From Kordiimonadaceae bacterium (GTDB taxonomy: Bacteria > Pseudomonadota > Alphaproteobacteria > Sphingomonadales > Emcibacteraceae): a DNA stretch of 42,496 nt. Position numbers and translations under genes: made by a program. Of this stretch, positions 30,643 to 37,728 are shown in pieces (the stretch's first letter is position 1; every line of letters begins with the position of its first letter). The notes below the pieces were generated by a model. It did no database searches and was not told where the DNA came from. It saw nothing but the letters and a program-made list of their open reading frames with translations. The stretch lies in assembly GCA_018660225.1 (NCBI GenBank), contig JABJKT010000011.1:1-42496 (forward strand), in the 5' to 3' direction.

Positions 30643-30885
30643 TTATTTAAAGGCTTTAAAAGTCATTATTGTGAAAGTGTCCTTAATACCGGGGATGGTC
30701 TGGATCTTTTCATTTACAAATCGGCCTATATCAACATCATCAGAAACATGGAACTTGCTCATTAAATCAAAAGCGCCGGAAACTGAATAAACATCTTCGG
30801 CTTCTTCTACGTTATCAACAAGCGCCTCAGCCACGCTATAAACCTCGCCAAGTTCACATTTAATTTGTACGAAAATATTCTGCAT
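30643..30885 (-). CDS. stand-alone AsnC/Lrp ligand-binding (RAM) domain protein
   Basis: This 80-residue protein contains just the alpha/beta RAM domain of Lrp/AsnC regulators (VQIKCELGEVYSVAEALVDN, then VYSVSGAFDLMSKFHV with the Gly/Asp ligand-site turn). It has no DNA-binding domain. Such small proteins are common in alphaproteobacteria and probably bind amino acids as oligomers; their role is unclear. It has its own promoter at 30918-30946 and may read through to hemN 47 bases downstream. Confidence 0.85.
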   Translation of the reverse strand: MQNIFVQIKCELGEVYSVAEALVDNVEEAEDVYSVSGAFDLMSKFHVSDDVDIGRFVNEKIQTIPGIKDTFTIMTFKAFK

Positions 30886-30917: not shown

Positions 30918-30946
30918 ATCATAGAAAACTACAATCCGTAATTCAA
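30918..30946 (-). promoter_or_regulatory. sigma-70-type promoter of AsnC-domain gene
   Basis: On the minus strand TTGAAT (30946-30941) and TATGAT (30923-30918) are 17 bases apart. The predicted start lies about 25 bases before the ATG at 30885. Confidence 0.5.
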
Positions 30947-30986
30947 TCATTGTTTCGATAATATAAATTGATCATCTCCTTAATTA

Positions 30987-32393
30987 TCAAAGAAGATCCG
31001 TGAGTTCGTTAATTTTGTTCAGCTTAGGGATGTTTTTGGCAGTTTCTAGTATTTTACCTAAACGATCTTCAAGAAAGTGACCTTCTGTCAGGGCGATGAA
31101 TTTTTGGTTTAGCTCCTCGTCTGTCATGGGCCGCTGGGAAGAACCGACGGGATAGTCTATTCTTTTTTCACTTAAACTGTTTTCAGTTAGGATTTCGATT
31201 TGAGCCGGGAACCCGCCAGTATCAACATGAAACTGGGTCAAATCGGGATCAGCGATAATTTCTATTTTTTCCATCAGCGCTAATACTTGCTTATCAAAAA
31301 TAGCCGGTTCTTCGAAGTCTTCCGGCGATGTTTGATCCGTCCTTATGATCGCGGAAGATACAGCATAAGCAAGGCTGAAACGAGCGGCCATGTGATTGGT
31401 TATATTCCGTCCAGATAAGGTAACGGCACTGTCCGCTTTAACGCGAACGACCACTTTTTTTATGTCATTCGGTGAAATATCGTGCTCCTTAACCAGATCA
31501 ATCGATGCTTCCATTGCGCTGTGAACACCGTAGCAGGAGGCATATTTTTTAAGAGCGATATGATCTATATTTGGTGCACCACCACTTGGAACGCTGAGCG
31601 GTTCTGCATCGCCGTGGCTATGGCTGGCAACAATACCCATTTCACCGGTAATAACCCGCGGGGTGGCGGTTAAGCCGTGTTTGGCAAGGTCCGCCGCATT
31701 CACCGCGAGCTGTGCGGCAAAGCCGTTGACCCAGTCCTTATCCATGCCGAACGCACCATTGGCTGATGATAAAGATGGCATCAACCCATTAGGGGAGCAT
31801 GCCCCGGCAATACCCATAGCATTTTGCAGCTTAGGTAAATCAAGATCAAGCAGCCGGGCGCAGGCCACAGCGGCACCGATCGGGGCGGCGATACTGGTTG
31901 TGCGAAACCCCTTGCCTTCACTGCGGTGCCTCCTGCCAACGGCCCTGAGCACGGCGATTGAAACTTCAAGCCCGGCGGCAATGGCCGTTATCAGATCAGC
32001 GCCGCTTTTTGCTTGGCGTTCTGCCATAGCAACGGCAGCGGGAACAATTGTCACCGCCAGATGACCGTTATTACGGGGATCGACCACAACATCCTGAAAA
32101 TCGAGTATTTCCGCCCAGGTGCCATTGGCCAGCGCAGCCTGATCAGCGGGAACCATGCCGCGCCCTGACCATAATTTGCATCCGTCATCTGATGAATGGT
32201 TTTCAAGGATCATATCTTCGTTAATAAGGCCGGATTTGTGCTGCTTTAAATAGGCACCAATGGAAATGCCGATACAATCGAAAATAATATGCGAAATATG
32301 CTCTATTGTATCAGCGCTTAGATCATCAAATGAGAGATCATGGGCATATCGGGCCAGTGCATCTTCGGGGTGATTATTTTGATCCATGGTCAT
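30987..32393 (-). CDS. MmgE/PrpD family protein
   Basis: This 468-residue protein belongs to the MmgE/PrpD superfamily, which includes 2-methylcitrate dehydratase, cis-aconitate decarboxylase and iminodisuccinate epimerase. N-terminal helical domain features include HIIFDCIGISIGAYLK and QAALANGTWAEILDFQDV. GAAVACARLLDL and KKYASCYGVHSAMEASIDL belong to the second half. The reaction is not readable. It is the last gene of an operon with a polar amino-acid ABC transporter, 4 bases after the ATPase stop, so its substrate is probably what the transporter imports. ATGs at 32393 and 32387 are both possible starts. Confidence 0.85.
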   Translation of the reverse strand: MTMDQNNHPEDALARYAHDLSFDDLSADTIEHISHIIFDCIGISIGAYLKQHKSGLINEDMILENHSSDDGCKLWSGRGMVPADQAALANGTWAEILDFQDVVVDPRNNGHLAVTIVPAAVAMAERQAKSGADLITAIAAGLEVSIAVLRAVGRRHRSEGKGFRTTSIAAPIGAAVACARLLDLDLPKLQNAMGIAGACSPNGLMPSLSSANGAFGMDKDWVNGFAAQLAVNAADLAKHGLTATPRVITGEMGIVASHSHGDAEPLSVPSGGAPNIDHIALKKYASCYGVHSAMEASIDLVKEHDISPNDIKKVVVRVKADSAVTLSGRNITNHMAARFSLAYAVSSAIIRTDQTSPEDFEEPAIFDKQVLALMEKIEIIADPDLTQFHVDTGGFPAQIEILTENSLSEKRIDYPVGSSQRPMTDEELNQKFIALTEGHFLEDRLGKILETAKNIPKLNKINELTDLL

Positions 32394-32397
32394 AACT

Positions 32398-33150
32398 CTA
32401 TCCGCTCATCCGTTTAAGAAAAGAACGAAGCCGTTCAGATTTAGGGCTTTCAAAAAATTCTTTTGCTACTCCCTGCTCGACGATTACGCCCTGATCAATA
32501 AAAATTACCCGGTCAGCGGTATCCCTTGCGAAATTAAGCTCATGGGTCGCGATGATCATTGTGTGGCCTTTAGCAGCAAGCGCACGCATGACATCAATAA
32601 CCTCACCGACCCGTTCCGGATCAAGCGCAGATGTTGGCTCATCAAACAGCATCACTTCCGGTTCCATAGCGAGCATTCTTGCAATCGCGACACGCTGTTG
32701 CTGACCGCCTGATAAGGTCGACGGATATTCATCCTGCCAATCTGCAAGCCCAACTTCTGTCAGTCTGTCGAGCGCGATTTTACCGGCTTCTTTTTTAGGG
32801 ATTTTCTTAACAACCATCAACGCATCTGCAACATTGCCGAGGGCCGTTCTATGTGGCCATAGGTTAAATTGCTGAAACACATAGCCGATGCGGCTTCTTT
32901 GTTTTGCCAAGGTCGCTTGATTTACTTTTTTTGAAGCACCAATAGCATCGCCGTGAATATATATTTCACCGCTCTCCTGAACCGTTAGCTGGTTTATACA
33001 GCGAAGCAACGTTGATTTACCTGATCCTGACGCGCCGAGGATACAAATGACCTCACCGGCGGCAACACTCATATCAATCCCTTTTAGGACCTCAAGTTCA
33101 CCGAACGATTTATGCAGATCAGTGATTTTTACGGCGGCGTTAGAAGACAT
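32398..33150 (-). CDS. polar amino-acid ABC transporter, ATP-binding protein
   Basis: This 250-residue ATPase of the GlnQ/HisP type shows Walker A GASGSGKSTLLRC, Q-loop YVFQQFNLWPHRTAL, signature LSGGQQQRVAIARML, Walker B EVMLFDEPTSALDPE and the H-loop TMIIATHELNFARD. The start at 33150 (MSSNAAVKI) is an ATG two bases past the permease stop; the upstream in-frame TTG at 33156 overlaps that stop. It energises uptake by the adjacent permease and binding protein. Confidence 0.93.
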   Translation of the reverse strand: MSSNAAVKITDLHKSFGELEVLKGIDMSVAAGEVICILGASGSGKSTLLRCINQLTVQESGEIYIHGDAIGASKKVNQATLAKQRSRIGYVFQQFNLWPHRTALGNVADALMVVKKIPKKEAGKIALDRLTEVGLADWQDEYPSTLSGGQQQRVAIARMLAMEPEVMLFDEPTSALDPERVGEVIDVMRALAAKGHTMIIATHELNFARDTADRVIFIDQGVIVEQGVAKEFFESPKSERLRSFLKRMSG

Positions 33151-33152
33151 GA

Positions 33153-33896
33153 TCAAATATCCCCTTGCGGTTTAAGACTGAATGCGGAGCGACTTATATT
33201 TTTAAAACTCTGCCAGAAAGATTTATTATCCCGCTTTACCCAGGCCAGCTTCCATTCAAGATACATCATGAAGAGTGACGTGCTGTAAGCCATGATAAGA
33301 TAAATTACCGCCACCACCGTGAAAACCTCTATCGGTCGGAAGAAATTGGCGATGATGATCTGGCCCTGATACATAAGTTCAGACATACCAAGAACTGAGC
33401 AAAGCGACGAAAGCTTTATTGCTGACACAAATACATTACCAATGGCCGGGATCATGCGGTAAGCGGCTTGGGGGACAACCACGCGCCTTGTAATTTGTCC
33501 GGGCTTAAAGCCAAGCGCGGCGGCGGCCTCAATATGGCCCTTATCAACGCCTTGGATGCCGGCGCGGAAAACTTCCGAGAGGTAAGAACCCACATTAAGG
33601 GCCATAGCGATCACCAGCGACGTTATGGCATCAAGCTGAAGCCCGGTAACAATTGGCAGGCAATAATATATCCAGACAATTTGGATCAGGCCCGGCGTTC
33701 CTCTAAAGACTTCAACATAGATAATCAGCGGGACGGCATATGCTCGCCTGACCCGAAGGCGGATAATTGCGACAAATAAGCCTATAATAGTCCCAAGCGC
33801 CATGGTAAGCAGTGATAAAACAATTGTGGTCTGGATTCCTTCAAGCAGTAAAGGAAAATTATTCCAGACAATATCAAAACGGAATTCGAAATTCAT
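33153..33896 (-). CDS. polar amino-acid ABC transporter, permease
   Basis: This permease of about 247 residues belongs to the HisM/GlnP family, with five or so helices. The EAA-type loop is GHIEAAAALGFKPGQITRRVVVPQA. IYVEVFRGTPGLIQIVWIYY is the usual early family block. As only one permease gene is present it probably works as a homodimer. The start at 33896 (MNFEFRFDIVWNNFPLLL) follows the family pattern; an ATG at 33923, overlapping the binding-protein gene, is possible. Confidence 0.9.
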   Translation of the reverse strand: MNFEFRFDIVWNNFPLLLEGIQTTIVLSLLTMALGTIIGLFVAIIRLRVRRAYAVPLIIYVEVFRGTPGLIQIVWIYYCLPIVTGLQLDAITSLVIAMALNVGSYLSEVFRAGIQGVDKGHIEAAAALGFKPGQITRRVVVPQAAYRMIPAIGNVFVSAIKLSSLCSVLGMSELMYQGQIIIANFFRPIEVFTVVAVIYLIMAYSTSLFMMYLEWKLAWVKRDNKSFWQSFKNISRSAFSLKPQGDI

Positions 33897-33903
33897 GTTT
33901 TTA

Positions 33904-34764
33904 TCACTTTGGAAGATCACCAATTAACCGGGTTGGCGCAACGATAGCATCAAGCACGATATCAGGATAAAGCTCCGCCTGTTTGGCCATAAACTGGGTT
34001 TCAATGATGGTATCAACGAAGGTGTTCATATAATGAAGCAGGTTATGCTGGCATTGCTGCATAACAAAGCCTGCACCAACCGAACGCGGCGATTCCGGCA
34101 GCACCACAACTTCGGCCCAATCCGGGTTAGCGCGGGCAATCTGCTGAGTTTCAACCGACCCGGCGCCCATGGCAATAGCACGTCCGCTTGCCACTTCTTG
34201 TTCAGGAAGTGCGGGCGGGGCAAGGGATTTTAAGGTCGCGTTTTGGAAAAAATCAGGATCATTTTCAGTATAGGTGATATGGGCGGCACTGCCGAGGCGG
34301 ACGATGATGGTATTGCCCGGCTTATCAATATCAGCGAGTGAACTAACGCCACTATCCTTTCGGACGAGAAAAGTCTGTGAGCCGATCACAACGGGTTTGG
34401 TGAACCATGCCGACACCGCCCGGTTAGGACGGCGCGCTACGTTTGAGAGCACCACATCATATTTACCGGATTGAAGTCCAGCCATAAAGGTATCCCACTT
34501 TGCTTCGACCCATTCGACTTCCACTTTCATCAGTTCTTCACCGAGCATATTTCCGGCATTAACAAAAGCGCCTTCTAGCTCACCCCTTTCATTGCGGTAT
34601 TGAAACGGCTTTGAATTAATCCAGCCAATGCGAATTTTTCCGCGTTTTAAGATTTCCTCTAACATGTCAGGCGCAGTACTGCAATTTGCGGCAAAGGCAG
34701 AGCCTGAAATAAAAATGCTCAAAACAGCAATTAATACTGTCAATATTCTGGATATATTAGTCAT
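33904..34764 (-). CDS. ABC transporter substrate-binding protein, family 3
   Basis: This 286-residue periplasmic binding protein has a signal peptide cleaved near SAFA|AN (residue 25). Type II binding-protein fold text includes KRGKIRIGWINSKPFQYRNE, MAGLQSGKYDVVLSNVARRP and IDKPGNTIIVRLGSAAHIT. The ligand is unknown. Nearby hut genes suggest histidine or urocanate, but this operon lacks the HutC-type palindrome and ends with an MmgE/PrpD gene, which points to another polar compound. GGAAGAG serves as ribosome-binding site. Confidence 0.88.
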   Translation of the reverse strand: MTNISRILTVLIAVLSIFISGSAFAANCSTAPDMLEEILKRGKIRIGWINSKPFQYRNERGELEGAFVNAGNMLGEELMKVEVEWVEAKWDTFMAGLQSGKYDVVLSNVARRPNRAVSAWFTKPVVIGSQTFLVRKDSGVSSLADIDKPGNTIIVRLGSAAHITYTENDPDFFQNATLKSLAPPALPEQEVASGRAIAMGAGSVETQQIARANPDWAEVVVLPESPRSVGAGFVMQQCQHNLLHYMNTFVDTIIETQFMAKQAELYPDIVLDAIVAPTRLIGDLPK

Positions 34765-34856: not shown

Positions 34857-35213
34857 TCAGATAACATCCGCATCTTTTAAAGATTTAATATCGGCGCTGC
34901 TTTTTCCTAAAATATCACCGTAAATTTCTGTGTTATGAGATCCCATTTCGGGGGAGCCGGCCCAGCTTATTTTTCCGGGCGTTTCTGACAGCTTTGGAGT
35001 GACATTCTGCATATATAAATTATCATATTCAGAATGTTCAACTTTAGTGATTGATTGTCGCGCTTTATACTGGGCGTTATCCATCATATCTTCGGTGGTA
35101 AATATTTTCCCGGCAGGAACGCCGTGCTGTTCCATTAAATTCAACACTTCCTCTGCCGGTAACTCCCTTGTCCAGTCGGCGATGATATCATCAAGTTCCA
35201 GACTATGAGCCGC
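34857..35213 (-). pseudogene. C-terminal remnant of CaiB/BaiF-type (family III) CoA-transferase
   Basis: Codons readable from 35213 to the stop at 34857 encode about 118 residues matching the C-terminal end of family III CoA-transferases: LELDDIIADWTRELPAEEVL, EQHGVPAGKIFTTEDMM, VTPKLSETPGKISWAG and GDILGKSSADIKSL. The roughly 280 residues that should come before are absent: an in-frame stop sits at 35216-35214 and the sequence beyond belongs to another gene on the other strand. The ATG at 35147 is an internal methionine, not a real start. Confidence 0.75.
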
Positions 35214-35215
35214 TC

Positions 35216-35395
35216 AGAATAACTGATATTGGTGCAATAGAAATCCACCATGTGAAATCTGATCTGCCGCCTTCGGGTATTGGTGAACCGGCTGTGCCGC
35301 CGTCTGGTGCGGCTCTTATTAATGCCATAGCCAATGCTACTGGTAAACGAATTACGAAACTTCCCTTAAGCGAAAATGGTATATCATTTACGTGA
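35216..35395 (+). pseudogene. C-terminal remnant of molybdenum hydroxylase large subunit
   Basis: In the frame ending with TGA at 35393-35395 the sequence reads IEIHHVKSDLPPSGIGEPAV, then PPSGAALINAIANATGKRI and TKLPLSENGISFT. This is the C-terminal signature of xanthine-dehydrogenase-family molybdopterin-binding subunits, notably the isoquinoline 1-oxidoreductase beta type, including the GxGEP motif that holds the catalytic glutamate. About 60 codons remain of a protein normally over 700 residues. It begins exactly where the CoA-transferase remnant stops. It has no start codon or ribosome-binding site. Confidence 0.72.
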
Positions 35396-35431: not shown

Positions 35432-36199
35432 TTATTCGATCATTGTTTCAATGAGCTTTGTTAATACCGGGCGGAGCTTATTGGCTCGCTCTTCATGGAA
35501 TTTTGCTTTGGGCGCTTCATCCATATAGGTGATTTGTGAAATTTCGAGCTGTATGGCATCGATGTTATTTGCGGGGTCACCATAGTTGCGGGTGATATAA
35601 CCGCCTTTAAAGCGGCCGTTCAGAGCCGTGCTATAATCTGATTTTTTGACTATGTCATCCAGTTTTTCCACTAGCCTCTGATCTGCTGAAATGCCGTTGC
35701 CTGTGCCCAGATTAAGATCGGGTAGCCGTCCTTCAAATAGATGCGGTACTTGGCTTTTTATGGAATGGGCGTCCCACAGCCGTACGTAGCCGTGCTTTTT
35801 TTTTAATCGTTTTATATCGGCCTTTAACTGATCATGGTAGGGGCGCCAATATTTTTCGGCGCGCGATGCACTATCAGGCACTGAACCATCTTGATAAAGT
35901 GCTTCATTTTCAAATGTATGCGTTGGACAAAGGGTTGTTTCATTTTGACCGGGATAGAGACTTTCACCTTCTAATCCCCTGTTCAGATCAACTACATAAC
36001 GACTATATTTTGCGCCGATAGCCGTTACGTCCATTTTAATCATAAAATTATAAAGCCGGTCAATATACCAGTCGGTATCGACCATACTGAGTGCCGCGTC
36101 GGTCATATTCTCCTTTATAACATCGGGAATTTCAAGACCAATATGCGGCATACTGATGATGAGTGGACTTTCGCCTTTCTTATACTGAAAAGCGTTCAT
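35432..36199 (-). CDS. hutG: N-formylglutamate deformylase
   Basis: This protein of about 255 residues belongs to the N-formylglutamate amidohydrolase family. It releases formate and glutamate in the last step of this histidine route. Family blocks are PLIISMPHIGLEIPD (metal His19), DTDWYIDRLY, ATGAKYSRYVVDLNR-like AIGAKYSRYVVDLNRG, and RLWDAHSIKSQVPHLFEGRL. The ATG at 36199 overlaps the hutH stop as TGATG; a GTG at 36202 is also in frame. It is the last gene of hutUHG. Confidence 0.9.
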   Translation of the reverse strand: MNAFQYKKGESPLIISMPHIGLEIPDVIKENMTDAALSMVDTDWYIDRLYNFMIKMDVTAIGAKYSRYVVDLNRGLEGESLYPGQNETTLCPTHTFENEALYQDGSVPDSASRAEKYWRPYHDQLKADIKRLKKKHGYVRLWDAHSIKSQVPHLFEGRLPDLNLGTGNGISADQRLVEKLDDIVKKSDYSTALNGRFKGGYITRNYGDPANNIDAIQLEISQITYMDEAPKAKFHEERANKLRPVLTKLIETMIE

Positions 36200-37728
36200 C
36201 ACATATTCCCGCTTGGTAATATTTTCATGACTTGCTCGGAGAAATCACCCGCTAATACCAACTGGGTCGCCCGGTCAATATCCGGGGCAAAAAAGCGGTC
36301 GACGGTATAATGGGGGACATTCTCTCTAATCAGCGTGTGATAAGGATCTAGTTTTTTGGATGTTTTAAGAGGGGCTCTAAAATCAATACCCTGCGTCGCC
36401 GCTAGCAGTTCAATGGCAATCACCGTTGCACTGTTAAAGCACATTGCGGTCAAGCGCCGCGCGCCGTAAGTCGCCATGCTGACATGATCTTCCTGATTGG
36501 CAGAAGTGGGAATGCTATCAACGCTAGACGGGTGAGCGCGAGATTTATTTTCAGAAACAAGTGCCGCCGCCGACACCTGAGCAATCATAAAGCCTGAATT
36601 AACGCCGCTATTTTTAACGAGAAACGCCGGAAGGTCGCTCATTTTCGGATCAACCATAATCGATAAGCGCCGTTCAGAAATAGACGCTATTTCACAGATT
36701 GCCAGTGCAAGTATATCAGCAGCAAAAGCCACCGGTTCAGCGTGGAAATTACCGCCCGAGATTACATCGCCATTATCGGTGAAAATTAGCGGATTATCGG
36801 TAACCGCATTGGCTTCTATCAACAGCGTTCTCGCCGCGTTATTTATAATATCAAGCACCGCCCCCATCACCTGCGGCTGACACCTGAGCGAATAAGGATC
36901 CTGAACCTTTTCGCAGTCATGATGAGCCTTATTAATTTCACTGCCCTGCAAGAGCTCAAGATAAAGCGGCGCAACCGCTATCTGACCCGGCTGACCACGG
37001 GCAATATGGATGCGTTTATCAAAAGGGGCAACACTACCCATCAATGCATCGATGCTCATGGAACCCGCAACAACGCCAGCGGCGAATATATCTTCCGCCT
37101 GAAATAAACCTTTAAGGGCCAGCGCCGTGGAAACCTGAGTGCCGTTTAAAAAAGCCAGCCCTTCTTTGGAATTTAGAGTAATCGGCTTAAGTCCGGCTTT
37201 TTGCAGTGCTTCTTTTGCCGGCATTTTTTCGCCGTTCAGTCGTGCGAATCCTTCCCCCATTAAGGCGGCGGTCATATGGGCAAGTGGCGCAAGATCACCG
37301 GACGCCCCAACCGATCCTTTTTTCGGGATATCAGCAATAATCCCGGAATTTACAAATTCAATAAACGCTTCAATGGTTGATACGCGAATACCGGAATGAC
37401 CCTGTGCAAGGCTTGAAATTTTAAGAACATAAACCATCCTCACTACATCATCTTTAAGGGGCCTGCCAACACCTGTACTATGGGAAAGGACGAGGTTGGT
37501 CTGTAGCAGCGATAACTGATCATCAGGAATTGACGTTTGGGCAAGCAGGCCAAAGCCGGTGTTAATGCCGTAGACGGTCTGTCCTTCCTCAATGATAGTA
37601 TCAACAACTTTTCTCGAAGCACGAACATCATCCCAGGCATGGTCTGCGAGAGAAATTTTCGCCTCATTTCGGTAAATGCCCCGTAAATCAGCCAAGGTCA
37701 TTTGGCCAGGATTAATTATATATGTCAT
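36199..37728 (-). CDS. hutH: histidine ammonia-lyase
   Basis: This 509-residue enzyme converts L-histidine to trans-urocanate plus ammonia. The autocatalytic MIO cofactor triad Ala142-Ser143-Gly144 is intact in [16 protein letters not shown], at the same numbering as the Pseudomonas enzyme. INTGFGLLA and the NPLIF and [10 protein letters not shown] blocks are also family hallmarks. The start at 37728 ([10 protein letters not shown]) has GGAGG 7 bases upstream; a TTG at 37734 overlaps the hutU stop. It follows hutU by two bases. Confidence 0.96.

Follow-up and report, generated by a model that had tools for sequence, protein, structure and literature searches.

The window analyzed here, a stretch of 42,496 nucleotides from a Kordiimonadaceae bacterium, raises the question of how the 3' ends of two genes on opposite strands came to adjoin each other next to hutG. 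An earlier note on this DNA had read the arrangement as the scar of a deletion, possibly a recent one, between two head-to-head divergent genes sharing a promoter region, and had placed an ancestral degradation locus for an N-heterocycle or CoA-linked substrate next to hut. The window represents one whole contig of a metagenome-derived assembly of 3.04 Mb in 219 contigs (94.6% complete).

Two 3' gene remnants

The minus-strand segment at 34857-35199 is the 3' remnant of a class III (CaiB/Frc-type) CoA-transferase. An open frame of 118 codons without stops (34857-35213, minus strand) contains it, and residues 3-94 of this frame match positions 277-366 of the 366-position Pfam profile CoA_transf_3 (PF02515; E=2.5e-16), which is the profile end only, with a score of 60.2 bits against a curated cut-off of 23.3. 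Over 113 residues the tail is 75% identical to the C-terminal part encoded by a complete 398-aa gene of the congener G003, and it is 69% identical to the intact CoA-transferase of G004. The earlier assignment of about 118 codons to the end of a CaiB-type enzyme was thus correct as to family and C-terminal position (by both Pfam and the G003 gene), but the homology spans only about 113 of the 118 codons, plus the stop. The complete N-terminal CoA-binding/catalytic part is not present in the frame. Since homology ends at 35199 and approximately 285 codons of the 5' part are missing, the segment is a remnant and not a working family member. A search for the head elsewhere in the 3.04-Mb assembly returned only the tail itself (73%) and paralogues of 25-38% identity. 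The intact G003 homolog passes no NCBIfam equivalog cut-off.

The plus-strand segment at 35198-35395 is the 3' remnant of an XDH-family molybdenum hydroxylase large subunit, comprising 65 codons and a stop, with approximately 656 codons of the 5' part missing. The stop-free frame at 35186-35395 (plus strand) aligns with the C-terminal residues of several NCBIfam models for XDH-family large subunits (best 4.5e-5) as well as with residues 702-758 of PDB entry 8gy3_C (E=5e-7). In the congener G011, a complete gene of 722 aa has a C-terminal end that is 76.6% identical over 64 residues (overall range 74-77%), and genes of 713-728 aa in G048, G036, G030 and G021 are approximately 55% identical. These matches agree with the earlier estimate of about 60 terminal codons. 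Complete molybdopterin-binding domains are not present in the tail, a 2Fe-2S partner gene was not found beside it, and the search of the assembly for the missing head yielded the tail (74%) and paralogues of 30-39% identity. The intact G011 homolog also passes no equivalog cut-off, so that specificity for an N-heterocycle is unsupported. Because congeners hold intact homologs of 398 and 722 aa, both 5' truncations are real; the absence of both 5' ends and the open frames on both strands had been described correctly, and the tails meet at one breakpoint. A different XDH-family large-subunit gene, with a tail 42% identical and an adjoining gene of 147 aa, is located in G013 (L195:2-2655). The G013 genome is a single contig, on which this gene lies approximately 11 kb away from hutG.

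The joint between the tails

Alignment to the CaiB and XDH genes of relatives placed the joint at 35198-35200, with the breakpoint at 35199|35200 and an overlap of 2 nt (CC). In the in-frame alignment with the G004 CoA-transferase, 30 of 30 bases are identical up to 35199, after which identity is lost, and in-frame XDH homology begins at 35198. The homologies consequently meet at 35198-35199 and not near 35214 as first proposed. The chance of an overlap of at least 2 nt at a random joining is approximately 0.16 (about one in six), so the overlap is close to the expectation for random joining and gives no specific indication of a deletion. The palindrome GAGCCGCTC, which had been placed at the joint, lies to the right of the break at 35207-35215 and encodes E-P-L of XDH, residues also present in the proteins of relatives. 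Because the palindrome belongs to conserved XDH codons, it is no part of the joint and was rejected as the cause of the break. A longer microhomology (a 4-nt TTCC overlap) was also discarded, as the in-frame alignment leaves only CC. A single piece inserted into an otherwise complete XDH gene was likewise rejected as the origin: no XDH head fits the other edge of the block. The joint has no exact match in viral contigs and no similar DNA was found in plasmids.

Relatives and the proposed divergent gene pair

The geometry would allow an ancestral divergent pair; the comparative data do not support one. In G018, G014 and G057, relatives of the CoA-transferase gene have as their divergent neighbor a hydroxymethylglutaryl-CoA-lyase-like (HMGL-like) gene, which is a different partner from the one that the proposal of a shared promoter called for. 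The intact XDH large-subunit gene is preceded in six of six intact loci read by a small gene of approximately 152-155 aa on the same strand, assigned as the 2Fe-2S subunit by Pfam in G011 and by size at the other loci. Wherever relatives of both genes reside on one contig in the sampled genomes of the order, they are at least 42 kb apart, and an intact adjacent divergent CaiB-XDH pair was not found among the hits in 299 genomes of the order. The suggested comparison of hutG flanks gave no intact pair either, with neither gene present in the flanks of 11 congeners. Among 80 further hut loci, CaiB is absent from all and an XDH relative was detected once, approximately 9 kb from hutU in Hoeflea poritis. 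In G018 (L036:6723-13121), genes for hydantoinase A and B follow the CoA-transferase gene in what may be a degradation cluster for cyclic amides or CoA esters, and G057 contains similarly sized genes at the corresponding place.

A variable block between hutG and lrp-hemN

The tails are part of 4.5 kb of DNA between hutG and lrp-hemN that also carries a four-gene operon on the minus strand. This operon consists of, as the first gene, one for a family 3 solute-binding protein (33904-34764; Pfam SBP_bac_3, orthologs of 81-87% identity in eight congeners), an ABC permease gene (33153-33923; 84-90% to the operon genes of congeners), an ABC ATPase gene (32398-33156; 72-79%) and, as the last gene, one for an MmgE/PrpD family protein (30987-32393; N and C domains of Pfam MmgE_PrpD, 62-69% to full-length congener genes). 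The block is flanked on the right by an intact minus-strand hutG (35432-36202; N-formylglutamate deformylase, TIGR02017 above cut-off) and on the left by a minus-strand gene with an AsnC/Lrp ligand-binding domain (30643-30885; Pfam PF01037). In five congeners (G006, G011, G007, G002 and G012), hutG is followed directly by the AsnC/Lrp-domain gene with a gap of 55-77 bp, so the DNA between the two genes in the window looks like gained material. A hemN-like gene also follows lrp in two of the five empty-site congeners with enough sequence fetched. Other congeners show other contents in the hutG-lrp gap: G013 has a histidine kinase gene, G003 an FA-hydroxylase block, and G010 genes for an IS30-like transposase, a methyltransferase and an FAA-hydrolase. 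Close intact homologs of the two tails are found at unrelated loci, with CaiB adjoining unrelated genes in G003 and G004 and XDH adjoining aminotransferase/ALDH genes in G011. As the block is a variable insertion and the intact genes reside elsewhere, the proposed ancestral locus for N-heterocycle or CoA-linked degradation is unsupported. The operon itself (30987-34764) is found in eight congeners at other loci and never beside a CoA-transferase gene; as its neighborhoods in these genomes are mostly different, the operon apparently changes its location within the genus.

A repeated hutG end is present at the two edges of the block. The 3' end of hutG (35434-35452, minus strand) is identical at 17 of 19 positions to a second copy at the lrp-side edge just upstream of lrp (30941-30959, minus strand). 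For the hutG-end pattern, 0.09 chance occurrences are expected per window at up to three mismatches, and no exact match other than these two was found. The repeat pair scored 30, which is above the 95% shuffle level and below the shuffle maximum of 31, and scored 43-45 against the hutG tails of the unoccupied G011 and G002. In G003 and G010, whose sites are occupied, a second hutG tail before lrp was detected beyond all shuffles; the G013 copy resembles the hutG tails of other genomes, yet does not beat its own shuffles, and no such copy was seen in G001. Together, the pair in the window and the copies in G003, G010 and, more weakly, G013 suggest a recurrent insertion point.

Occupied and empty sites thus share one position, and the insert is bordered by directly repeated hutG ends, as in an insertion hotspot. 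In a FastTree tree of hut genes, the unoccupied G006 is nested in the same clade as the window and G003, which implies that insertions recurred or that one was lost. The repeat carries a promoter-like TTGAAT-17-TATGAT, and selection for the lrp promoter may explain the survival of the copy. No integrase was recognized among the inserted genes scanned (inserts being partly incomplete or partly scanned), and a literature search returned nothing on hutG as an integration site. It is a tentative and rather doubtful proposal that small gene blocks insert repeatedly and site-specifically at the hutG 3' end in the genus, where each event would replace the hutG tail and leave the native tail, together with the lrp-hemN promoter, on the far side. 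On this proposal, the CaiB/XDH joint would be one product of turnover at the site.

Age of the truncation and possible function of the tails

Neither tail appears visibly decayed at the sequence level. In columns where three outgroup CoA-transferases agree, two unique changes were counted in the CaiB tail and two in the intact G003 gene; with G004 as the intact gene, the counts were three for the window and four for G004. Differences in the CaiB tail by codon position (27/13/57) are third-position heavy, as are those between the two intact genes (34/15/59), and the XDH tail exhibits the same bias (16/5/47). Undecayed tails suggest that the truncation is recent relative to the divergence of the genus, and the earlier remark that the event may be recent holds on this time scale.

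Taken alone, the undecayed state would also fit a chimera created during assembly or library preparation, the contig being metagenome-derived, and the fragmented assembly, of which the window is one whole contig, adds some weight to this explanation. A chimera is nevertheless improbable: the missing heads are on no other contig of the bin, and no sequence repeat at the joint extends beyond 2 nt, which makes a repeat-driven misjoin unlikely. Open frames and third-position-biased change could also be expected if the tails were kept for a function, either as a short C-terminal protein or as a transcript-end element between convergent genes, and a terminator-like stem is indeed present in the XDH tail at 35290-35314. 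Such retention is very improbable, since the conservation signal can predate the truncation, the CaiB tail has no start codon before a GTG at 35147, the XDH frame has no listed ORF from a start codon, and the number of terminator-like hits differs little from that in shuffled sequence (8 vs 5.3, sd 2.3).

Origin of the joint

The tails are probably non-functional remnants of illegitimate recombination, most likely of a single deletion, within the variable block between hutG and lrp-hemN. In an earlier form of the block, the ABC/MmgE operon would have had an intact CoA-transferase gene upstream of it on the minus strand, and a complete 2Fe-2S/XDH gene pair would have been oriented towards hutG. 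Because the XDH gene of relatives is preceded by a 2Fe-2S gene on its own strand, a deletion must include the CaiB head, the 2Fe-2S gene and the XDH head. It would have removed at least approximately 3.3 kb (0.85 kb for the CaiB head, 0.46 kb for the 2Fe-2S gene and 1.97 kb for the XDH head) and left a joint with a 2-nt overlap. In favor of a deletion, the homology of each tail to intact genes stops at the same point and the other edge of the block lacks the XDH head that a simple insertion into XDH would leave. Deletions are also a common class of spontaneous bacterial rearrangement and accounted for 28 of an estimated 51 junctions in Salmonella (PMC3411829). Against it, the intact pre-deletion arrangement was not seen in any relative examined.

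Alternatively, the fragments never were neighbors, and pieces from different places would have been end-joined as the block was assembled at a hutG hotspot. The block is composite, with an operon that resides elsewhere and never beside CaiB in eight congeners; the intact CaiB (G003, G004) and XDH (G011) genes lie beside unrelated genes, and the two are not neighbors in any sampled genome. Such an origin is possible though clearly the less likely one: two truncated pieces must arrive tails-out and meet exactly, while one deletion is one event. For the joint we accordingly infer one deletion event and not the direct joining of the ends of two incoming fragments. The earlier deletion-scar reading hence stands as far as both 5' ends were lost at one breakpoint and the heads are absent from the assembly, and falls with regard to divergent neighbors as the ancestral state.

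Significance and comparison with known systems

A gene scar of this type is an ordinary, routine trace of gene loss. Two adjoining gene tails are at the same time a warning against inferring an ancestral pathway, because the homologs of the fragments live at unrelated loci, and no pathway is inferable from the CaiB/XDH joint. Of greater use is a side result: the gap between hutG and lrp varies in content and carries repeated gene ends, and it could be mapped across the genus.

Compared with class III CoA-transferases (CaiB/Frc, PF02515), the CaiB tail matches the end of the family profile but is truncated. The XDH tail likewise matches the C-terminal end of XDH-family large subunits of the aldehyde/isoquinoline oxidoreductase type and retains the G-[IV]-G-E-P motif, although it is truncated as well. 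The gap resembles gene-end integration hotspots of genomic islands in that variable blocks occur at one place in several genomes and the 3' end of the neighboring gene is repeated at the far edge; it differs in that no integrase was recognized among the genes scanned, with one block containing an IS30-like transposase. While the pre-deletion locus was seen in no relative here, the joint otherwise resembles bacterial pseudogene remnants joined by spontaneous deletion, with 5'-truncated frames that meet at one breakpoint with little or no homology and with intact homologs in relatives.
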